The position numbers were made by a program, and so were the translations under genes. Below, one piece after another: positions 22,037-56,787 of a stretch of 64,000 nucleotides of DNA (its first letter is position 1; the number at the start of each line of letters is the position of its first letter). Under the pieces are notes generated by a model. The model had not been told where the DNA came from, searched no databases, and saw only the letters and a program-made list of their open reading frames with translations. Where the stretch lies: the NCBI GenBank assembly GCA_022592435.1, contig JABYQS010000171.1:1-64000 (forward strand). The letters run 5' to 3'. Origin of the DNA: Cerioporus squamosus. Lineage: Eukaryota > Basidiomycota > Agaricomycetes > Polyporales > Polyporaceae.

Positions 22037-24380
22037 TTATTTCTGCATCTCATCGATGCAGCACCGCTTTGCCGCCGGACCTTCACGCCCCCTCTCAGAC
22101 GATCCGCGGGAGGAGGACGAAGCGGCAGAATGGCTTGAGCGAGGCCGTTTACCGCCATGACAGCGTGACACATCCCCGTCACTGTCCGAACGCTCCGCAA
22201 AGAGATGATACTCGACCCATTGTTCCGACGCGTCGCTCGGCATAGGGGAGTCATCCGCGTCGTCGCTGAGACTCGCTTCCCACTCGGCAAAACTTCTGGC
22301 TCGCTCAGCGCGCGCAGGTCTCTCCTTGCAGCATGTGCGCTTGTGCGGCAGTGCTGGCGGAGATCCCGAGTTGACTTGTGGTTTCGGCGTGTATGGCACA
22401 GCTGCGTCGCCTTCGGGCCAGTCATCGCGCGCGAGCGAGGCTGTGAGAAGGTCGATGACCTCTCCGTAGTCCAGGGGATGCCACGGAGCCTTCTCCAAGA
22501 CCAGGTTCCCGAACTGCTTGATGAGGTCCTCGAGGGGCGGGTTATTAGGAATGGAAAACGAATCCATCTCGCCTATCAGCCACATATGCTTGGCACCGAG
22601 TTGTTTGGTAAAGTCGGAAGGAGCAGGAAAGACCCAGGCGTGTAACCAGTTCTCGGACGACTCGTTATGAGCGGTATGAGCGATGACGACCCAAACGAGG
22701 ACCCAGTAGAACGACTCAAGGTCGTCGCCCGAGTTGTGAACCTGGTCGGTCCTGTCTAACAATAGACGGATGGACATGAATGGGACGTCCCCTGGATGAC
22801 AGGCGATCAGGAATGAGCACTTTGTGGAACAGAAGGTTGTAGTTGTAGTACTCACCGTCCGCTGTCTGATTTCTTTCGGGTTTGCCTCTGCAACCAGACG
22901 CTCAGCTTCGCCCAGCTTGCGGGGGACGACGGTTCGAGGTTCGGGGGCTCCGCGCTCATTGAAGAATAGTCGAAGTCGTGTAGGAACCCTCGAAAATGGA
23001 GTGCGTCTCATCTTCGACGATGAGAACGTTCCCGACGCTGATATCACGATGCAAGATACCCGCCCTAGTCAATGCGATGCGATGTCCTATGAGCATAATG
23101 AGTCAAACCCTGCCACATCCTCGGGATTGCATAAACGACTCACCAAAAACGGCATCCCGCAGCGCAGTAACCAACTCCTTGGTACTCCGGAATTGCGTGA
23201 GCGGTCTTCCGACAGTGTCGACGACAATACGCACGTGACTGCGTTCGTAAAGATGGCTTCCTCTTGTTGTTCTCCATGAGAACGTCTGCTGATGTGGACG
23301 GTGTCGAGGAGGGAGTGCGCGACTCGTCGTGGCGAGAAGAGATGCAGGGGCATCGAATGGGATGGTGTCGAGCGTTTTCACGCTCCGGAGTCGAAGGCGA
23401 GAACGGTGGTGACTGTCCTCGTCGAGAGGTGTCCGCTCGTAATCGACACCATAAAGTGCGTCCTCCCACAGTCGCACCTCACGCTCACCAAGGTCCCTGC
23501 CGCATACTAGATGAGGAAGACCGACTTGCTCTTCTTCAGGGATACACTTGACTAGCCGATCGTAGAAGGCGTCCTCTGAGCGATGATCTAGTGGTCGCCA
23601 TGCATCCTTTATGACCTGCACTCGCGGACTGGCAAATTGAAGATCGTCGACAGAGTGGTCGCCGACGGAGAGGCGAGTATCGCGGATCCCAAGCCACACT
23701 GCGGTCGACCGGGAGAACAGTCGATGGTCGGAGGCCAGTGATTTGAAGATGATGTACGATGCTTGTTCTCCTGTCTTGCTATACACGCTGATTGACCTGG
23801 CGTTCGAGATATCGGCGCTCCTCCCGAGGAGATTGAGGCGGTCACGGAGCCACTCTTCGTCGACGCTCCTCAACAAACGAACTGTGGGATCCCATCCTAC
23901 GAAAGGAACGTCTTCGCACGGGTGCACGAAGTTCCAGAAGAAAGTCTTGAGGAGGTGTACATCGCTCTGCTCCCTCAGAGAGAGCGTTCCGGAAACAACA
24001 AGGGCGGCAGTGTCGACTCGTGCTATGCGCGCAGTGTCTCCGTAGATGCCGACAACGAATGCAGCGAGGAGCGAATGAGATTGCATGAGAACACGCGCGC
24101 TGTACACCGTGTTGAGGAGCGACTTGCAGTTCCGGAGTCCGTGTAGTTCACCAAAGGGATCCTCGTCCTTAGTCGCCTTGACGTCGATGAGGAGAGAAAC
24201 ACGTGCAGGCTGCCCAACGTCACCACCAGGGAAGCTCGCAACTATAGGGGCAATCACGGACGGATGGCGGCTGCGAGGGGAATGTGTCGAAAGTCCGGAA
24301 AATGTTGCGGCGCGCCCATCGACGAAGGTGAGACGCTTATCATGAGGAAAGTAGACAACGAGATCGTTCAAAGCTTGCAC
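22037..24380 (-). CDS. FunK1-type fungal protein kinase A (two frame breaks, 5' exon not found)
   Basis: Member of the FunK1 family, a eukaryotic-kinase-fold group expanded in Agaricomycetes. Recognisable exons are 24380-23144, 23086-22856 and 22791-22037. Exon 1 carries the N-terminal FunK1 region (FPHDKRLTF, LLAAFVVGIYGDTARI, RLFSRSTAVWLGI, RIVVDTVGRPLTQF). Exon 2 has the catalytic loop GILHRDISVGNVLI; the FLHDFDYSS metal-binding motif appears only after adding a base at the AA of 22985-22986. A second correction, at GGGGG 22921-22925, is needed to reach EIRQRT; with both, exon phases are exact. Exon 3 has DDLESFYWVLVWVV and ends in a basic Ser/Arg tail, probably nuclear. The first exon seen in the other copies is not recognisable upstream (24455-24754 has an open frame of doubtful meaning). 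Either a pseudogene or a sequence with assembly deletions. Confidence 0.75.
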
Positions 24381-26949: not shown

Positions 26950-27290
26950 AGCCCGGAGATCGGACTGTCTAGTAGTCGACATCCTTGATGGTACTCAGCC
27001 TACTCTACATCGTCGTAGGTTCCAACCCATCTTCGCGCGTGCTACTGTAAAGGAACATGACCGCAGGACTCTCCGAACGCCTGCGTCACGCTCGCCCTTC
27101 CACTCGGGATATCCAAAGACGTCAGTCGCAGCCTGCATGCCACGTCTCTTCGATATGTTTGCTCATGATGCTATGTTTGAAATATTCTCCCGAAACATAC
27201 AGACCCTGTTCTGCCCTTCAAGGATCGCGAAGAATGTGCACTCCGTACTGCTCCGTAGTGATGGTGTTCGCAAAGATTCTTAGGTTGCAT
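26950..27290 (+). pseudogene. Formamidase pseudogene fragment
   Basis: Two separated pieces of the formamidase gene found complete at 54187-56787 lie here in the opposite orientation. The first (26957-27000) encodes DCLVVDILDG, identical in protein to the internal formamidase sequence. The second (about 27010-27290) matches the last intron and last exon (CATCGTCGTAGG donor region, then CTCTCCGAACGCnTGCGTCACGCTCGCCCTTCC). About 1.5 kb of gene between them is missing and the frames are broken. It is the left end of the inverted segmental duplicate. Confidence 0.78.
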
Positions 27291-27511
27291 GTGGGGCATT
27301 GCTGGCATAAAAGCACCGGGTAAGTTGCATGTCAGTACTGATATGCGCATCCGGTCGGACGAAGAAGTAGGAAGCATACACTTGTAACTGTACCTACTTA
27401 CTCATCTTTGACGAGCAATGTGAAGGATGCACATGATCAAATTGAGTATTAGTACAAGCATGCGTAGCAATTAGTACAGGGGTATTCACGAGTAACCAGA
27501 GAGTCCGTTGA

Positions 27512-30300
27512 TTAGTCTGTGCGCTCGCTGCGCCGACTACCTTTCGACCTCTTGCTCGACCGGCTCCTGCCACTCCCTGAGACTTGGGGGTCAGCCGGTT
27601 CCTCAGCCTTGCGCTTCCTGGAGGACGAGGATGAGCTGGGCCTGCCATCTGAGGGAGCGGCCACCGTTCCACTGCGTTGCCCTTTCGAGCGCAGATGCGC
27701 CTTGTAGCTTGATGGTGTCTCGGAAGGTGGGGGCATCTTCTCGGCATCGGATCGCGGAGCGCCAGAACCTGTCTTCTTGGAGGGTGGTGAAGGCTTCGGC
27801 TCGGCGTGAGTGTCGTGGATGACTCCAGGTATGCTGGTATGTGACTTGTCGAGCCACTTGCAGGGGACGAAGTCGATGTCTGGCCAGCCCGGGGATGCAA
27901 GGGCTTCGTCAAAGAGCTGAAGTACATCGTCGTAGGTCATCGGTTCAGGTTTTGAGATCTTGGAGCCGACGCTCTTGATGACAAGGAAGGCCATGTCACG
28001 CAGGAGCTTGATGAGAGGTTGGTTGTCGGGAATATCAATCATATCCACTATCGTTTCGAGCCACTCGCTCTTGTTCCCGGCGCTGGTCAAGTCGTCTCCG
28101 TACGCGAATACTTTCTGGGCTTTGGCCTCTGGGAGATTGTGAACCGTATGCCGCAGGACCACCCATACTAGGATCCAGTAGAACGATTCGAGATCGTGAT
28201 GTACGCCGTGGACGACGGGACGGCGGAGAATCTCGAGAGCCATGAAGTAGTAGGTGCCCTGTAGATATCGTTAGTAACACACCGTGGTATGATGAGGCAA
28301 AGATACCGACCTTTCGTTCCCTCCGCTCATCATTTTTGTATGTGACCGCTACGCCCATACTCTCGAGGCCGTCAACGTCGGCACGATCTGCATCTGCGGA
28401 CGGAGGCACTTCGTCGCCAGGGGCGACATCCGTCATGGCGCTGTAATCGAAGTCGTGAATGAAACCGACAAAGCTTCCATCCTCGGCCTCGTCCAGAATC
28501 AAAACGTTGCCGACACTGACGTCACGATGGAGGACGCCGGCCTTCTCGAACGCCAGCCTATGACCTGGCCCCAAGTTAGCACACATCCAAGTAGAGAGCA
28601 TTTGAAGACCAACCTATCACCGCATCTCTGAGAGCGAGGACAAGCTCCTTCGTGTTCTTCGCCTTCGTAAGGGTGCGCCCAACATCTTCAATGACCAAGC
28701 GCATGTGGCTGCGTTCACGGCATGTCCACTTCTTTCCGCCCCCGATGGCCCAGGAGAATGTCTGATGTTGAGGATACCGGTGAGGGTAGGTAGGAGCTGC
28801 AAGTAGGGGGTGATGAGCTTATCTCCGAGGAACAAAGGTGGCGACGTACCTTGGGGCCCGATTGCCTTTGCTATACCTGCAGACGACGCTGCTGGCATCG
28901 GATAAGAGGGCAATCTAGTCTCCCGTTTCCCATCCATGATGGACACGTCTTCACTCGACCTCTCCCATTGAAGAACATCGAGCTGACCGAGATCGCCACC
29001 ACAGACGAGCTTTGAGATTCCAAACCGATCCTTCTCTGGAATCTTGTCAGATAGTCTCTTGTAGAACACCTCCTCGGGGTTCCGTATGACCTGTCGCCAC
29101 GCCTCCTTCAAGATCCTTGGCTTCGTCTTCATGTCCTTGTCTCGATGGGGATCGTCGATGAGGCGGCCATCAGGGCCAAGGATCCGCGTGTCCTCGATGG
29201 TAAGCCACACTGTTGTCGCTCGAGAGAAAAGCCGTGAGTTCACATCGAGCAGACGGTACAAGAGATACGGCTGCATGATGGTCCCATCCGCGCCGCTCGG
29301 AACCAAGACCCTACGGCCCTTATGAACCTCTTTGAGCGCGCTGCTGACGTCGCGGACGCCAGCGCGTTCAAGCTGTTCCGTGATCCAGAGCTGATCACCG
29401 ACTGTAAGTCGTCTGACAGTAGGATCGGCACCCGCAACGATAGCATCAGGAGAAGCGGGATGTGTGAAGTGCCATAGGAAGCGCTGGAGGTACTGGGGGT
29501 GTTCGTGGATGGGGAAAGCAGGGGAGACGAGCGCGGACGTGTGATCGTACTTGATCACCCGTACAATGTCGCCATAGATTCCGATGACGAAAGCGGAAAG
29601 GAAACCGTGGGCCAGAAGGAGATTTCTTGCACTTCGGGCACTCTGGACGGCGGTAGTGGCATTCAGACCACCATCTCTAGGGTAGGGATCTTCTTCGCGG
29701 GTCGGCTTGGCCTCGATTATCATCGCGATGTGTTGCCAGGGTGAGGTCTTCATATCTCCAGAAGAAATGGGGTTTCCCGGGAAGGAGACACAGACATCGG
29801 GTAACGTCCAGGAGTTTGGCTTCACGAAGTCGCCGAAGGGAAAGTACATGCGGGTGCCATGGGTGTTATAGAAGAAGAGCTTCTTGTCGCCAAAGTGCGA
29901 AACAAGTTGGTCCAATCCGGCGATCTGCAACCACCTCAGTTGAGTACAGCGGCGAAGGACAGACTTCACTCACCAGCCCATTATAGCTCCAAACTTCCTT
30001 CCCTTTCTCCGGGTTGAACGCCGAGAAGGCGTTGTCGATGTCGTTCGTTGGCTCGTGCGGGACCGATGATGGGAGAAGATCGTCAAGGAATTGGTCGAAC
30101 TGACCAGGAAACCAGTGGATGCGACCGGTGATCTCGGCGCGCCAGTTCTCGGCGGCGGCTTCCTTGGTTGAGTGAACGTCTGCGGGGCGGACGGGGTGAG
30201 CATTGCCCTTCTGAGAACGCGGGGAGGCGAAGGTGTCCGCCATACCTGAGCTGCCGGAGCAGCTGCAAGCGCTGCTAATTGAGGCGGTAGAGATGGACAT
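27512..30300 (-). CDS. FunK1-type fungal protein kinase B (intact)
   Basis: The only one of the four FunK1 genes here with no frame break. Exons 30300-29974, 29924-28850, 28796-28614, 28564-28311 and 28258-27512 give 861 residues, all phases matching. Kinase motifs: HRD at 541-543 within GVLHRDVSVGNVLI, N548, and the metal-binding motif as HDFD (D566) rather than DFG, typical of FunK1; then DLESFYWILVWVVLRH after the activation-segment region. The C-terminal 120 residues are Ser/Pro/Lys-rich with RKRK and SSKRSKGSRR, likely nuclear signals. Substrate unknown. TATAAA directly abuts the first ATG; the Met at codon 20 (MADTFASP) is a credible alternative start. It lies in the left arm of an inverted duplication; FunK1-D is its sister copy. 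Confidence 0.9.
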
Positions 30301-30306
30301 TTTATA
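30301..30306 (-). promoter_or_regulatory. TATA box touching the first FunK1-B ATG
   Basis: TATAAA on the minus strand, immediately followed by ATG at 30300-30298. If this is the real TATA box, transcription would start downstream of that ATG and translation at the Met 57 bp further on. The same arrangement is kept in the FunK1-D copy. Confidence 0.5.
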
Positions 30307-30503
30307 GGTGAGGGTGGTGGTTGGGATAGAGGTGCTGGCTGCGGCGAACAATGGGTCGGTGCGTAAGCGCTAGTCGTGAAGACCACGATGCACTTCTCAT
30401 AAGCGAGGCAACCCCTTCCGTTGGTTCCGGTGTGTGAGACAGAGATAGGGCAAAGAGCTCACATTGTGATTCGAAGCCCGCCGTGGTAGAATAGGTCCAG
30501 AGG

Positions 30504-30509
30504 AATTGG
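30504..30509. repeat. Target-site duplication (left)
   Basis: AATTGG next to the left end of the TIR element; repeated at 31308-31313 after the right end. Confidence 0.75.
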
Positions 30510-31307
30510 CAGGACCCCTGATAATACGGGCGTCACTCTCTTCTGCGTACGGACCAGGATGGGTGGGCCGGCCGGTGGGAGGTCTCTTCAAAGTACGGAC
30601 CGAAGTGGGCTGAGGAGGGCCCGGGAGGTCTCTTATTTGTACGGACCTGATGGGCGCCTCCAGGCGACGGCGGGAGCAGTCTCTTCAGATGACGGACCAT
30701 TGACAGGGCGCTTGACTTGCCGAGGTGGCCGTGCTTATCGGAGTTTCGTCTCAGTAAGCATTGTAGTTACTGTTTAGACGGAGTTTGTATTCTACTACGG
30801 TGTGCAATACTCAGAAGACATGCGTTGGTCACTCGCGCGACATTGTTTTGCAAAGCTAAACATACGCCGAGAGGGTACCGGGGCTGATCAAGAGAAGTAC
30901 AAGCTGTCCGTGAAGGACATGCAGGATTATGTCTTGCTGCAGAGGGCCCGCGCAAAGATCCAGGAGGTCGCGAAGGAGTTGGGGAAGAAGCGGCGGCGGC
31001 AGGCCTCAGACGCCGATGCCAAAGAGCATGAGGACGACGAGGATTGATATCACACATGGACGTTCTACTGTGCTAGTACGTTCTGTTGCATTATAGGAAG
31101 CATCCACGACTGTCGCAATGTGTATACGATGTAAAACGCGCTCACGCGCACTCTCTTCGAATATACGGACCTTCGCGGGCGCTTAGCGGCAGTCTCTTCA
31201 ATGACGGACCAAAATTGGCTATATAAGGCAGGTTGGCGTACGGACCAAAATGGCTGGGGACAGCCTCGACCTTGAAGAGAGTGTCGACCGTATTATCAGG
31301 GGTCCTG
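30510..31307. mobile_element. 798-bp non-autonomous DNA transposon with 34-bp terminal inverted repeats
   Basis: The ends are inverted copies of each other: the first 20 bases (CAGGACCCCTGATAATACGG) match the reverse complement of the right end exactly, and the match continues to 34 bp with two mismatches. It is flanked by a 6-bp AATTGG duplication. The corresponding place in the right arm (near 50828) has no element, proving insertion. Inside, a TCTCTTC...TACGGACC motif is repeated about seven times in the same orientation, four near the left end and three near the right. An 80-90 codon basic frame lies in the middle. No transposase catalytic motif is visible, so it depends on another copy. 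Superfamily unassigned; a 6-bp duplication excludes Tc1/mariner and does not fit typical hAT. Confidence 0.9.
30778..31047 (+). pseudogene. Truncated basic frame inside the TIR element
   Basis: An 89-codon frame following a good splice-acceptor-like TACTGTTTAG: it begins TEFVFYYGVQYSEDMRW and ends with a Lys/Arg run and an Asp/Glu tail (GKKRRRQASDADAKEHEDDED region) before TGA. It looks like the last exon of a larger protein, either a transposase tail or a captured host gene. There is no start codon of its own except GTG or an internal ATG. Not recognised. Confidence 0.4.
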
Positions 31308-31313
31308 AATTGG
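31308..31313. repeat. Target-site duplication (right)
   Basis: AATTGG, the second copy of the duplication flanking the TIR element. Confidence 0.75.
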
Positions 31314-32200
31314 CCCGAGTAGAGAGGGCCAGCTGAGCTTCAAGCAGGTGATGCGAGAACAATGGTCCAGAAACAGGGCGATGACGAGGTTGCTTGACTA
31401 GTCCACAGCTCTCTTAAACGGAACACGTCAGCGCTGTCTCGATAACCTGCGACAATGCGCTTTGCGGAACCATGTGCCAGCGGAACTTACCACGATCGGA
31501 CACAATCGAGTTCTTTGTGTCAGAGCCGAGCAACGCTGGGTTACGGGTAAGAGGATGCAACCGTATCAATCGATAGCGCGTGGTCTCGATGGCGGAGGTG
31601 GGAGACGGTGAGCCGGGGGACGATGTTCAAGTCCAAGTTCGGAGTCTCGAGCGCTCTGCCCCCTAACATGCCGAGTCCTGCCGAGCGCCCAAATGCTTAA
31701 CCACCCGGGATCGCGGCCTGTCGGTACGACTCTCAGGGCGTATCTCATTGCATGCTGTTATGCAAAGCGGTTCCCTGAGACACACTACAACCCAAGATAT
31801 CCGGAGCCACATAAGGGGATACTTGTTGCACAAGCACCGCCAAACCATTCGACTCGGAGTCGGCACGCGGTGGGGCCTACCCGACAGGCGGAGCTGCGTG
31901 AACTCGGAATGTGAGGAGGCGAGTTTGCGCGGCATGAGTGCTTTAGCGATCCGCGCTCGTGTTATCTGATGATCCCTTCATCGGGAACGGATTGTCGAGT
32001 GTTGAGCTTCATGCTTCAAATTGCCTGAGGCCTAGGCCCTAGGGTGGACCGACGTCCGTGCTGGTGAGGTCCATTTTCGTCGTCAAATTGGAGCGTTCTC
32101 CCATCCTGCGCCTAGAGAAACGCAGGATGAGAGCCTCGGAGAATCCAGCAAACAGACAATCTGTTTCGCGTGAATCGCTGCCTCAGGTTACCATCTGCCT

Positions 32201-49746: not shown

Positions 49747-51032
49747 ATGGCGAACCATCGAACCAGCGGGGGACTGGGGAGGGTATGTTACAGCATTCCG
49801 GTTGTGACGTTCAACCGATAACATGTCGTACATAAGACGTTCCCTGGCCGTCGCCATATGTCGCTCCGCTAACAACCATGGCATCGCGGTCCCGATGCAG
49901 TAGTGCCAATTACATGACGCCTATTACTGAAACGGCGGTTTACGCAAAACATATTGTCTGTTTTGGATCATCCGAAACCCATACTGCGTGGCACTAGACG
50001 CAGAATGAGAGAACGATCTACCTGACTCACATTAGCACTGGTTGCACTTATTGCACATGAATTCAGCTTTGACAACGAAAATGGACCTCACCATGTCGGA
50101 CGTCGGTCCACCCTCAGGCAACTTAAAACATGAAGTTCAACACTCGACACCCCGGCTTCGATAACGCGATCATCAGATAACACGAGCCCGGATCGCTAAA
50201 GCATTTAAGTATGTCGCGCTATCTCGCCTCCTTTCATTCCGAGTTCACGCAGCTCCGCCTGTCGGGTAAACACCGCCGCGTGCTGACTAGTACTCCTTAG
50301 GCTCCAATGGTTTGGGGGTGGTTGCTAGTACTTATTGTCCAATAAGTATCACCTTTTGCAGCTCCCTTTATCTTGGGTAATTGTGTGTCTGAGGGAACCG
50401 CTATGCACAACAGCATGCAATGAGATACGCCCTCGCATCGACAGGCCGCGATCCGGGGTGGTTAGGAATTTGGGCGCTCGGCAGGACTCGGCAGAGCGCT
50501 TGAGACTCCGGACTTGGACTTGAACTTGAACTTGAACATCGTCCACCCGCTAACCGCCTCCCACTCCTGCCGTCTAGACCACGCGCTATCGATTGATACA
50601 GAGTCGCTTCTTTATAAACACAGTGCACGCAAAGGACTCGATTGCGTCCGATCGTGGTAAGTTCCGCTGACATATGGTCCCGCAAAGCGCATTGTCGAGT
50701 CAGCGCTGACGTGTTTCGTTTAAGAGAGCTGGGGACCAGCCAGCCAACCTCGTCATCGCCCTGTTTCTGGGCCGTTGTCCTCCAATTACCTGTTTGAAGC
50801 TCAGCTGGCTTTATTCACTCGGGCCATAATTCCTCTAGACCTGTTTTACCACGGCGGGCCGATTCACATGTGAGCTCTTTGCCCTTTTCTCTGTCTCACA
50901 CACCGGAACTAACGGAAGGGGTTGCCTCGCTTATGAGAAGTGCCTCGTGGTCTTCACGACTAGCGCTTACGCACCGACCCATTGTTCGCCGCAGCCAGCA
51001 CCTCTATCCCAACCACCACCCTCACCTATAAA
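49747..51032. other. 1.3-kb region upstream of FunK1-D, mostly right duplicate arm
   Basis: From about 49,930 this is the counterpart of 30,300-32,200 in the left arm, without the TIR element. The empty site is near 50,828 (AATTATGG on the minus strand against AATTGG in the left arm). No gene of its own. Confidence 0.6.
51027..51032 (+). promoter_or_regulatory. TATA box touching the first FunK1-D ATG
   Basis: TATAAA directly followed by ATG at 51033, as in the sister copy FunK1-B. Confidence 0.5.
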
Positions 51033-53839
51033 ATGTCCATCTCTACCGCCTCAATTAGCAGCGCTTGCAGCTGCTCCGGCAGCTCAGGTATGGCGGACAC
51101 CTTCGCCTCCCCGCGTTCTCAGAAGGGCAATGCTCACCCCGTCCGCCCCGCAGACGTTCACTCAACCAAGGAAGCCGCCGTCGAGAACTGGCGCGCTGAG
51201 ATCACCGGTCGCATCCACTGGTTTCCTGGTCAGTTCGACCAATTCCTTGACGATCTTCTCCATCATCGGTCCCGCACGAGCCAACGAACGATATCGACAA
51301 CGCCTTCTCGTCCTTCAATCCGGAGAAAGGGAAGGAAGTGTGGAGCTATGATGGGCTGGTGAGTGAAGTCTGCTCTTTGCAGTGTAACCAACTGAGGTGG
51401 TTGCAGATCGCCGGCTTAGACAAGCTTGTCTTGCACTTTGGCGACAAGAAGCTCTTCTTCTACAACACCCACGGCACTCGCATGTATTTCCCCTTCGGCG
51501 ACTTCGTGAAGCCGAACTCGTGGACGTATCCCGATGTCTGCGTCTCCTTCCCCGGAACCCCGGTATCTTCTGCTGATTTCAAGAGTTCACCCTGGCAACA
51601 CATTGCGATGGTCATCGAGGCAAAGCCGACTCGTGAAGAAGACCCCTACCCTAGAGAGGGTGGTCTCAACGCCAATACCGCCGTCCAGAGTGCCCGAAAT
51701 GCAAGAAACCTTCTCTTGGCCCACGGCTTCCTTTCCGCCTTCGTCATCGGTATCTATGGCGACCTCGTACGAGTGATCAAGTACGATCACACATCAGCTC
51801 TCGTTTCCCCTGCTTTCCCCATTCATGAGCAACCCCAATACCTGCAGCGCTTCCTATGGCACTTCACGCATCCCTCTTCCCCTGACGCTATCGTTGCCGG
51901 TGCCGACCCTACTGTCAGACGGCTGACTGTTGGTGATCAGCTCTGGGTCACGGAGCAGCTCGAGCGCGCCAATGTCCGCGACGTCGACGGCGCACTGAAA
52001 GAGATCCACAAAGGGCGTAGGGTCTTAGTACCGAGCGGTGCGGATGGGACTATCATGCGGCCGTTCCTCCTCTACCGTCTACTCGACGTCAACTCACGGC
52101 TCTTCTCTCGAGCAACGACGGTATGGCTCACCATCGAGGACACACGGGTCCTTGGCCCCGATGGCCGCCTTATCGACGATCATCATCGAGACAAGAACTG
52201 GAAGCCCAAGCCCAAGATCTTGAAGGAAGCGTGGCGACAGGTCGTGCGGAACCCCGAGGAAGCGTTCTACAAGAGACTATCTGACAAGATACCCGAGAAG
52301 GATCGGTTTGGACTTCCGAGGCTCGTATGTGGTGGTGATCTTGGACAGCTCGATGTCCTCGAGTGGGAGAAATCATCCGCGGACGTATCTATCATGGATG
52401 GGGAGCGGGCGACTCGGCTACCCTCTTATCCAACACCAGCAGCGTCATCTTTGCCTGAGGCTCCAGCGGATAAGGCACCCCAAGGTACGCATCTACCTCT
52501 CGCTTCATGATTATCGCTCATCGCTCTCTACTTTGGCTCTCTACTTGCAGCTCCTACCTACCCCCACCGTTATCCCCAACATCAAACGTTCTCCTGGGCG
52601 ATCGGTAGTGAGAAGAAATGGACATTTCGTGAACGCAGCCACATGCGCCTAGTCATTGACGACGTTGGACGCTCCCTCACGAAGGCAAAGAACACGAAGG
52701 AGCTTGTTATCGCTCTCAGAGATGCGGTGATAGGTACGTGCCTTATGGTCAAATGCTCCACCGCGTGTATTGACTTGCGGCTAGGTCATAAGCTGGCGTT
52801 CGAGAAGGCCGGTGTTCTCCACCGCGACGTCAGTGTTGGCAATGTCTTGATTGTGGATGAGGCCGAGGATGGGAGCTTCCTCGGTTTCATCCACGATTTC
52901 GATTACAGCGCTACGACGGACGTCGCACCGGGTGATGAACCCGTCGCTTGCCGAGAGTACGGACAGCGACGGCTTGGACAGTGCCGGCGTGGTTTTGATA
53001 TACAAGAACGACGAGCGTAAGGAGCGAACGGTCAGTCCTTTCCACAGCCTTGCGCATCTCATTACTTACCGTTTAGGCAGGGCACATACTACTTCATGGC
53101 GATGGAGATACTCGACGGTCCGGTCGTCCACGGCGTGCATCACGACCTCGAGTCGTTCTACTGGGTCTTGGTATGGATCATCCTGCGACACACCGCTCAC
53201 AATTTCCCGGTCACGCAAGCCCAGGATGTGTTCGTCTACGGCAAGGACGCGCACAGTCTTGGGATGAAGAGTGTATGGGTCAATAGCCAAGTGGGTCGAT
53301 TCGACATTCCGGGCAACCAACCTCTCGTCAAGCTCTTGCGCGACATGGGCGACCTGGTCATCAAGAATTACGGTTCGAAGTTCATGAAGCCCGAACACAT
53401 GACCCACGACGCGGTGATTCAGCTCTTCGATGAGGCGCTTGCATCGCCCGGCTGGCCCGAGATCGACTTCGTCCCCTGCAAATGGCTTGACAAGTCACAG
53501 GCCAGTATCCCTGGGGTCATCCACGACCCCAGCACCAAGCCGAAACTACCCCCCTCCAAGAAGACAGGTTCTGGCGCTCCACGATTCTATGCCGAGAAGA
53601 TGCCCCCACCTTCCGAGACCCCGTCGAGCTACAAGGCGCATCTGCGCTCAGGCTCGAAAGGGCAACACAGTGGAACGGCCGCCACTTCTGTCGGGCCCTC
53701 AGATGGCAGGCCCAGCTCGTCCTCGTCTTCCAGGAAGCGCAAGGCCGAGGAACCGGCTGACCCCCAGGCCTCAGGGAGTGGCAGGAGCCGGTCGAGCAAG
53801 AGGTCAAAGGGTAGTCGACGCAGCGAGTGCACAGACTAG
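51033..53839 (+). pseudogene. FunK1-type fungal protein kinase D, sister of B with two frame breaks
   Basis: Close paralogue of FunK1-B in the opposite arm of the inverted duplication. Exons 51033-51358, 51407-52484, 52551-52733, 52785-53030 and 53081-53839 use the same splice sites as B. Exon 1 has CC at 51260-51261 where B has CCC, shifting the frame after FLDDLL; exon 4 lacks two bases near 52934-52942 after PGDE, where B continues VPPSAD. Otherwise all FunK1 motifs are kept: HRDVSVGNVLI, FIHDFDYSA, DLESFYWVLVW, and the basic tail SSSSSSRKRKAEEPAD. The kinase core would not be made from the sequence as given. Whether these are true mutations or assembly errors between near-identical copies cannot be decided here. 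Many differences from B are synonymous, suggesting it was under constraint until recently. Confidence 0.8.
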
Positions 53840-54186
53840 TCTATGGACTTTCTCGTCGTCCGAGAGTACTTTTGTACCGTTTGTCACGCATACTTGTGCT
53901 TATACTGTCCATATACTGTAGACTGATGTTGAAGATTTTTCGTCAGACATGCAGCGAAGGCAATGCTCATCAAGTGAGCTGACAGACTTTTCGCATCACA
54001 CTTCATACTTCTCGTCAAAGTCATCTTGGATAGTTTGATCGCCAGATGCATAGGTACAGTTACAAGTGTGTGGTTCCTGCCTCGTTCGACCGGGTGCGCA
54101 GATCAGCACTGACATGCGGATTGACCCGGCGCTCTCATGCCAACGATGCCCTACATGCAACCTAAGAGTCTTCGCGAACGCCGTCA
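53840..54186. other. Short region between FunK1-D and formamidase 3' ends
   Basis: Convergent 3' flanks, about 350 bp, inside the right duplicate arm. No gene. Confidence 0.5.
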
Positions 54187-56787
54187 CTACGGAGCGCACA
54201 TTCTCCGCGGTTCTTGAAGGGCAGAACAGGGTCTGTATGTTTCGGGAGAATATCCTAGAACATAGCATAGTGAGCGAACATATCGAAGAGACGTGGCATG
54301 CAGGCCGCGACTGACGTCTTCGAATATCCCGAGCGGAAGGGCGAGCGTGACGCAAGCGTTCGGAGAGTCCTGGGACCATGTTACTGTACAGCATCACGCC
54401 CGAGGGTGACTTGGGACCTACGACAATGGCTCCTACATGGCTCTCGACCGGTGCCGCAGATAACAGAAGGTCTGCACGAAGCTGATCAGGATACTAAAAC
54501 AATAATATCCGTGCAGGCTCAAAACTCACAAGCCTGCTGGCGAGCTGTTCCCCGATAGGGTCAGCGTTATGACTTCCAGTTCGAAGGACACTCACTGTAT
54601 CCGAGCTGCGCGACGTACGTCAGTAGAGTCCTGATAAGGTCGAGACATACTGACCTTCTGGAGGTACGCAATCGCATTGAGCGCAGCTTGCTTGTACGCC
54701 ACGGTACTGGTGGGCGCGTCAGCTCCAAAGAGTGGGAAGAGGATAAAAGGCACTCACGCGTCCATATTGTACTGTTTCCCGTCACCATCTGTACAAGTGC
54801 ACATATCACCCTCGGGAGTAGAGACAAGGGTCCGAACAACATACGATAGTCGACGCTGATACCCTCGAAGATGATCTGCCACGCATCGGAGACACAAGTC
54901 AGTCCATGTCCATTCCTTATGCGAGAAAACCTCACTACTCACCTTCGATGAGTAGAGCGGATCAACAGGAGATGGCTGGGATGTCCGCATCGTAAGACTT
55001 TGACCAGGATGCATAGAATAGCACTCACGAGGAAGATAGGCTGCTTCAGTCCAAGCTTGTCCACGCCACCCTTGATGATGCTGCAGCTAAAGGTGACAAT
55101 ACCCGCCTACATCTGTGTTCAATACGGCGTCGCAAAGGCTTGAGTCCGAATGTGTCTTACCATCTCAATCGCACCGCAGAACGACATCTTGTTAGCGATC
55201 GTCAGCATGCCCCACTGAGAGAGTAGTTTGACATTGTCACCTCGCCCTACGGGATCCATAAGTCAAAAATCGCGCCTGTGACACGAGAAGGTTCCTTACA
55301 TCGCCCTGAGAGAAGTGCAGGTCACCGACCGACAGGTTTGCACCCTTGATGAAGACGGGGAAATAGCAACGTGAACCCCTGGAGACCAGTCGTCAAAATA
55401 CGTGGGTGAGTATGCGCGACCAACCACAAATCCTTACTTTGAGAGGTTCTTGATCTAAAAAGGACATCCTCAGGATTCACGTCCAAACAAGCAAGCTAGG
55501 ATACGCACGTCGCAATTACCACCGTGCTCCCGGCCTGGGATCGTCCTAGCACCCTCCGCGTAGATCTTCCTCCTCACGTCCTCCGGGATCTCCTGTCCGA
55601 CGTACGCACCGTGGGTCTGCGGAGGGAATGCCACCGGAGGAACAGCACCAGGGTGCGCGTCGATCAGCTCCTTCTCTCGCTTGTTCCAAGTGTCGAGGAG
55701 CTCCTGAGACGGCGCGGTCCCGATCAGACCGGGGTGGGACACTCCAGCGAAGCGTACGCCAGGGATGTGGCGAGAGGTTGCATATACACCTGCGGCCAAT
55801 CGTGAATGATCGAATCACGTTGAAGGGATCGCCCAATCAGAAATACCATGGAAATCCCAGATAGCCTTGGCTGCACGACTCTGGAACTCTTGTGCGAACA
55901 AACCTCCACCATTGTTCAGCTCGAAGATGCCCTAAAAATGCGTGTCAGCTTTTCTCATCTTCAATCCTGGCGAAGGATAGGGCGAGACGTACAGTGTAGC
56001 CCCAAGGCATCTTGTCAAAGGGCGTCACTAGCATGAGTGTTAGCAAAAGCATGGTCACCCGTCGTAGAAGATCCCACCATCCAAAATGTCGACGACCAGG
56101 CAGTCTCCGGGCTCTGCGCCCTCGACCGCGACCGGTCCCGAGAGGTTGTGCACTTTCGAGAGATCGACATCCCGGATATCATCGCTGGCTGCAACCAAGA
56201 CGTCAGATACGTGTCGCTCCGCCCTGCGATACCGAGACTCACTATCGTTGTTGCCAATCTGCGCTCCCGTCCAATCTTTCACAGACGATGTCAGCGACCA
56301 ACCCATGCCGGCGGCGAGAATATGTAGCGTACCGACGCACTGGACCTTGAAGACCTGTAGTATGTCCTGTGAGTTAGAATCAGAGCACTACCAGGCGAAC
56401 GTGCAACGTACCTCTCCAGGTTTGACCGTTGCAACCGGAGGGATGTCAGGGCTGGGATGCACTGCTGTTGGCTGGGCCGAAACGCAGGGCGAACGATGAG
56501 CACTTACTGCCACCGATTGTGAATACCCTGCAGAGAGAAACCATGAAGATAATACACAATCGAAAGATTGAGTATCAATGGCACTCACCTGTTGCTCATC
56601 TGCAGGACTAAGCAAAGCTCTCTAGTCACTGCCCGAAAAGACTTATGCGGCACGAAGCTTACATGAAGGGGTCGACCTATGGACCCCGCCAATGCATTAG
56701 CGTCGCCCGCAATCGACATATACCAACCGCAAGCAGATCCACCTCGATCAACGTCTTGATCGGAACAGAGTTGATTCTGGTGGCCAT
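54187..56787 (-). CDS. Formamidase (FmdA/AmdA acetamidase-formamidase family)
   Basis: Hydrolyses formamide to formate and ammonia; in fungi it serves nitrogen use and detoxification of cyanide-derived formamide. The gene is broken into more than 20 very short exons, separated by introns of about 50-65 bp. Joined pieces give HNRW/HPDIPPVATVKPGE, VDWTGAQIGNNDS, DDIRDVDLSKVHNLSGP, GDCLVVDILD, TPFDKMPWGYTGIFE, RHIPGVRFAGVSHPGLIG, ARTIPGREHGGNCD, IKNLSKGSRCYFPVF, GANLSVGDLHFSQGDGE, FCGAIEMAGIV, SVDYHGDGKQYNMDA, YTRQQAYLLLSAAPVE and DSPNACVTLALPLGIFE, which cover the family from end to end. No frame break is required, though small exons near the start (56600-56730) are less certain. The stop at 54187 follows a tail longer than usual and lies in the right arm of the inverted duplication. 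Confidence 0.88.

Follow-up and report, generated by a model that had tools for sequence, protein, structure and literature searches.

The 64,000-bp window analysed here (positions 1–64,000, forward strand, of contig JABYQS010000171.1 in the Cerioporus squamosus assembly GCA_022592435.1) contains a 796-bp insertion at 30511..31306 (+ strand, the orientation being taken from a transposase remnant), which very probably belongs to a fungal branch of the P-element superfamily as a non-autonomous copy with an internal deletion. Both of its ends, each with a terminal inverted repeat (TIR) and a subterminal repeat array, appear to have been retained, together with the 3′ tail of a transposase gene. 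Its borders and 8-bp target site duplications, its copy number and recent spread, the remnant, a coding relative elsewhere in the genome (C170), the P-like fold predicted for a homologue of that relative's transposase and the conserved spacing of the repeats are all read from the sequence or from a structural model.

Borders, ends and target site duplication

The 33-bp TIRs lie at 30511..30543 (left, + strand, AGGACCCCTGATAATACGGGCG...) and 31274..31306 (right, − strand). They start AGGACCCCTGATAATACGG, match each other at 31 of 33 positions, and are flanked by identical 8-bp target site duplications, GAATTGGC, at 30503..30510 and 31307..31314. An initial annotation of this DNA had reported a TIR-bounded insertion at about 30510–31307; the insertion is real, and its borders are refined here to 30511–31306. 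The border is set by other family copies, in which any of the four bases can precede AGGACCCC, varying by copy and by end, so that the first C and last G of the element as annotated are target DNA. Because the duplication begins with G and ends with C, these two bases resemble one extra TIR pair. The two mismatches given for a 34-bp TIR thus stand (94.1% identity over those 34 nt), but its length is 33 bp. With the border moved one base inward at each side, the duplication becomes 8 bp rather than the 6-bp AATTGG originally proposed. The argument for an undescribed superfamily, which had been built on a 6-bp length, therefore falls, and a P-element fold is indicated by the transposase that the coding relative encodes; the word ‘undescribed’ may still apply to the family and its end architecture. 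Superfamilies with 6-bp duplications, such as IS3EU, do not match the window family, in which the duplications are of 8 bp.

Copies in the genome and related families

All 988 contigs of the genome (54 Mb) were scanned with the 20-nt element end at up to two mismatches, all counts being lower bounds. At least 20 matches were found, against none for a reversed control, showing that the ends are not unique; the 20 represent ten places of the window family plus one related end on C423. Exact 8-bp duplications flank eight of the nine independent insertions (C81, C634, C6, C866, C46, C358, C495 and C185), so the duplication length is consistent across copies, and the flanks of nine copies (about 290 nt on each side) have no mutual resemblance at E 1e-3. 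The seven short copies, each at a site of its own, are 92–100% alike, and those on C866, C358 and C495 are identical, indicating recent movement. With several copies and consistent duplications, the earlier description of a non-autonomous, multi-copy DNA transposon family is upheld.

C615 was left out of the counts of independent insertions, since it is the same site as the window copy. This second contig of the window locus (L031) carries the same insertion and duplication, is 98.4% identical over 4.9 kb with 49 gap openings, and is a second haplotype or an assembly error. The C113 copy (L004/L013, G000:C113:320885-321680) is 99.6% identical to the window element, lies in unlike flanks and has possibly recombined.

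Two longer copies, of 5,830 bp (C185) and 2,390 bp (C46), hold other elements and were rejected as autonomous versions. The former (5.83 kb; L029:760-6589, G000:C185:16759-22588) is the same short element holding a retroelement-like insert of about 5 kb, whose frames resemble reverse transcriptase and tyrosine recombinase (Pfam integrase, E 0.084); by eye we take this insert to be DIRS/Ngaro-like, and no duplication was seen at its borders. The latter (2.39 kb; L030:804-3193, G000:C46:441603-443992) has a nested hAT-like element of about 1.6 kb with TAGTGTTGCCGC ends, a PF05699 match and an 8-bp duplication of its own, GTTGGGGA.

A wider group shares the outer ends. The 11-nt outer end AGGACCCCNGA occurs at 195 places in the genome, compared with 85 for its reversed control. 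The first 100 of these 195 places include 20 inverted pairs, of which five belong to the window family. Among the flanks of the remaining 15 pairs, exact 8-bp duplications were present in the CGACAAT family (8/8), the CGAATGCG family (4/4) and C170. The 8-bp length, within the 7–8 bp of the P superfamily, is seen in eight of nine insertions of the window family, all 12 read in two sister families and the single C170 element. C423 and C162 share the repeat spacing described below, lack a duplication and have the same sequence to their right, so both may go back to a single old insertion that was duplicated along with the DNA around it. C10 (L101, G000:C10:1251-1722) looks like a plain AGGACCCCAGA-ended palindrome, the inverted repeat of which extends into the flanks, and is probably not a transposon copy. 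BLAST comparison (word 7, E 0.1) among the window element, C170, C1 and C423 revealed at most 29 nt of TIR in common and nothing else.

Transposase remnant and coding relative

The window element contains a C-terminal remnant of a P-type transposase gene at 30778..31047 (+ strand), comprising 89 open codons that end ...KLSVKDMQDYVLLQRARAKIQEVAKELGKKRRRQASDADAKEHEDDED-stop with TGA at 31045. It has no start and is not functional. Its 55-aa tail is 95% identical to that of the C185 copy, and a Pfam search with the remnant was uninformative. The remnant can be aligned to the C-terminal ends of four longer homologues, which supports a link to the gene on C170, and in the reverse search the C170 peptide matched the C185 copy at E 1.1e-6.

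The C170 element (6,825 bp, L081:210-7034) has 34-nt TIRs (AGGACCCCCGAAAG..., 79% paired) and an 8-bp duplication, CACGTCCC. It carries a multi-exon transposase gene and what may be a Ulp1-type protease gene, Ulp1-like by motif, with a PF02902 match (E 0.017) that does not reach the cut-off. The main exon of the transposase gene matched 123 proteins at E ≤0.001 among 7,999 candidates scored. Named homologues among the 120 matches listed come from basidiomycetes, including Athelia, Trametes, Mycena and Agaricus, and are annotated as hypothetical or uncharacterised. Three consecutive blocks of C170 align with residues 11–618 of one homologue, P0010; the homologue alignment itself comprised 41 of the 123, picked by hand. 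In the assembly this transposase was found only at C170 and, in a distant form, at C196 (L102, G000:C196:1-7800). The latter is a second P-type-like transposase, 27–33% identical, with a C-x2-C...W-x2-H-x3-C motif recognised by eye and no matching TIR within the 7.8 kb read.

The predicted fold of a C170 homologue is P-like, residues 39–507 of the model corresponding to residues 138–565 of the Drosophila P transposase. As in that enzyme, the model has an RNase H-type core and a helical insertion domain that precedes the final acidic residue. The fungal transposase bears an N-terminal H-x2-C-x17-H-x3-C motif. A model of the N-terminal part had a mean predicted local distance difference test (pLDDT) score of 46, with approximately residues 141–200 at 74–85 forming a strand pair and helix, and was too weak for a fold search. 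The THAP domain follows the pattern C-x2-4-C-x35-53-C-x2-H, which is absent from C170 and from P0121–P0123, and no THAP family was matched by the C170 exon at E values up to 1. According to a passage of PMC7776569, fungi lack THAP domains. In view of the missing THAP domain our claim is limited to ‘P-type’ and does not extend to ‘animal P’.

Subterminal repeat arrays

Four ACGGACC repeats form the left subterminal array (30549..30698, + strand; starts at 30549, 30595, 30641 and 30692) and three, in the same direction, the right array (31165..31246, + strand; starts at 31165, 31204 and 31240). On one strand ACGGACC occurs seven times in the element and twice elsewhere in the window; when the element was shuffled 2000 times by single bases, the mean count was 0.05 and the maximum 2. 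The initial annotation had listed about seven same-direction repeats of TCTCTTC...; the number and direction hold for ACGGACC, but the TCTCTTC half is present in only five of the seven, with TCTCTTA in one and neither in the last. The ordered arrangement likened there to protein-binding sites is thus borne out, with the binding role itself being putative.

Measured from the termini of the window element, the CGGAC cores start at +40, +86, +132 and +183 and end at −137, −98 and −62, in one direction throughout; the first lies 6 bp inward of the left TIR and the last 28 bp inward of the right TIR. This ruler recurs in elements of other families. C170 has CGGAC at +41, +85, +131 and +171 and at −87 and −60 (and −231), and C1 and C57 at +42, +86 and +131 and at −136, −95 and −60, in each case with extra copies in the opposite direction. 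C423, when reversed, has it at +40, +87 and +134 and at −99 and −63 (starts 214 and 250 of 316). The left positions +40, +86 and +132 are accordingly matched within 3 bp in C170, C1/C57 and C423/C162. A ruler test was made with six window positions (+40, +86, +132, −62, −98 and −137) and a tolerance of 3 bp, both chosen post hoc. C170 scored 4/6, C1 6/6 and C423 reversed 5/6, the last being the better of its two directions (forward 0/6), and the largest score in 2000 dinucleotide shuffles of each was 2. Scores of zero were also obtained for C1 and C170 reversed and for C54 and C44.

The element-free sister arm

The element lies in one arm of an inverted duplication within the window (27008–32186 versus 54428–49927, 75–84% identity). 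The arms align at 27445–30507 with 53906–50828 and at 31311–32087 with 50826–50068, the element being missing from the second. This duplicate, near 50,828, had been put forward as a clean empty site. The absence of the element is confirmed, but the counterpart (50826..50828, − strand) reads GAATTATGGC across the site where GAATTGGC is expected, a 2-bp difference, and the sister arm is therefore an imperfect yet usable empty site. Both arms (27008–32186 and 49927–54428) bear fragments of a protein kinase gene of the fungal type. The four fragments match PF17667 with E values between 1e-5 and 8e-5, three of them slightly under the cut-off, and a further kinase of this type is found at 23103–24380.

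Discussion

Several observations weigh against assignment to the P superfamily. The protein whose fold was modelled is not that of C170 itself but a homologue in a different fungus, 39–45% identical to the C170 gene, and the link to the P element from sequence comparison is thin. PF12017, the HTH domain of P transposase, was found in 3 of the 41 homologues at E ≤0.1, exceeding the cut-off in P0010 (26.5 bits) and P0118 (28.2 bits), and PF21787 in two of the 41 at the same threshold (best E 0.016). The C170 exon scored 15.7 bits for PF12017 (cut-off 23 bits), a PF12017 scan of the C. squamosus genome had no match, and a profile search of the PDB did not retrieve the P transposase, other sequence searches of the PDB giving nothing informative. 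C170 shares just the outermost 11 nt or so of the window-element TIR, and its right array fits the ruler only in part (−60 and −87). When the remnant tail was searched against the genome, 17 of 18 matches were in element copies and the eighteenth, on C170, had an E value of 0.3. A full-length copy with exact TGATAATACGG ends and a transposase was not found in the genome. The flanks of C113, C162, C423 and the palindromic C10 show no duplications, and the CGAATGCG family (C54 and C44) is without the CGGAC ruler (0/6), having same-direction TCGGGG repeats instead.

In the mechanism that we propose, a P-type transposase supplied by another locus, such as a C170-like element, would bind the CGGACC arrays and the TIRs, the former perhaps through its N-terminal H-x2-C-x17-H-x3-C finger. 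It would then pair the two unlike ends and excise the element with a DDE active site, in a cut-and-paste reaction that may depend on guanosine triphosphate (GTP). Joining to the target with an 8-bp stagger would leave the 8-bp duplication. It is unlikely that the subterminal repeats of such a P-type element are instead promoter or other regulatory sequence. The putative binding role is read from the repeats themselves and the left array of C170 lies upstream of its first long reading frame, which would fit a regulatory function, but the repeats stand at both ends, at fixed distances from the termini, and persist in short elements that contain no recognised gene.

If the arrays are transposase sites, their common direction means that the right array faces its end in the opposite sense to the left and could distinguish the two ends. 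We tentatively suggest, as somewhat less than an even chance, that in the fungal P branch another zinc finger replaces the animal THAP domain and that the asymmetric, same-direction arrays constitute a left/right code by which only unlike ends pair. The array steps, about 45 bp at one end and about 37 bp at the other, might, with equal reserve, be a more elaborate counterpart of the 9/21 spacing seen in P and of the 12/23 rule that governs V(D)J recombination. On this reading one transposase could drive several miniature families, since the ruler is common to them.

The coding tail could also be a captured gene fragment, uninformative about the mobilising transposase. The tail is indeed short and, in several copies, interrupted by frameshifts; against this, it is similar to the C170 transposase gene in direction, in position by the right array and in distance from the element end, and the two elements agree in outer TIR, in duplication length and in the spacing of the left array, making capture very unlikely. 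Still less credit is given to a non-autonomous hAT (Ac-type) element. The hAT superfamily likewise produces 8-bp duplications, as in the window family, and the genome has hAT genes (28 PF05699 matches), but PF05699 is not matched on C170. The KDZ group (Zisupton or Dileera), for which 8-bp duplications in fungi are described in part of PMC12730594 and whose transposases are numerous here, is the least probable source, with none of its 92 PF18758 matches on C170 or C196, a P-like model for the C170 homologue, and no paired copy of the window-element TIR in a coarse scan (≤6/19 mismatches) of 30 KDZ loci, whose 1.5-kb flanks may stop short of the ends. The KDZ load of the genome is itself large, the 92 matches in 54 Mb being spread over many contigs.

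Comparison with known systems

As a P-type element, the window insertion can be set beside Drosophila melanogaster P, which in the passages of PMC7776569 has 8-bp duplications, TIRs of 31 bp (33 bp here), smaller, internally deleted copies that are non-autonomous, and unequal end spacing, the distance from the TIR to the transposase site inward of it being 9 and 21 bp at the two ends. The transposase fold, as predicted for the C170 homologue, would be a further likeness. The fungal system differs in that no THAP domain was found in its protein, which has the H-x2-C-x17-H-x3-C motif instead, in having several putative sites per end with arrays in one direction, and in the size of the coding relative (6.8 kb in C170, 2.9 kb in P), which includes a possible Ulp1-like protease gene. 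The binding sites of Drosophila P face each other, in inverted direction.

Zebrafish Pdre2/THAP9 similarly combines a P-type transposase with 8-bp duplications and internally deleted copies (passages of PMC10983969). Galileo, of the Drosophila P superfamily, can have tandem repeats in its ends, but its duplications are of 7 bp, seldom 8, with the consensus GTATTAC, and its TIRs can be very long (passages of PMC4168063). Zisupton and Dileera, the latter in Basidiomycota, share the 8-bp duplications, but their KDZ transposase is unmatched on C170 (excerpts of PMC12730594). The P superfamily and a ‘P-Fungi’ class are already known. The ‘P-Fungi’ label names a P branch in repeat tables, the relevant table passages giving no ends, duplications or proteins (PMC8594854, PMC6136362). 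A search of the open literature, with most subscription papers outside its scope, turned up no account of ends like these or of the finger-bearing fungal protein.

Experimental work on P-type transposons, in the literature covered here, is on animals, in which THAP and transposase occur together. A fungal branch with another putative finger, recently mobile copies and a ruler shared across families offers a comparison set for end discrimination by P-type and RAG-like enzymes. For annotation of such genomes it provides a signature of AGGACCCC ends, 8-bp duplications and spaced CGGAC arrays.
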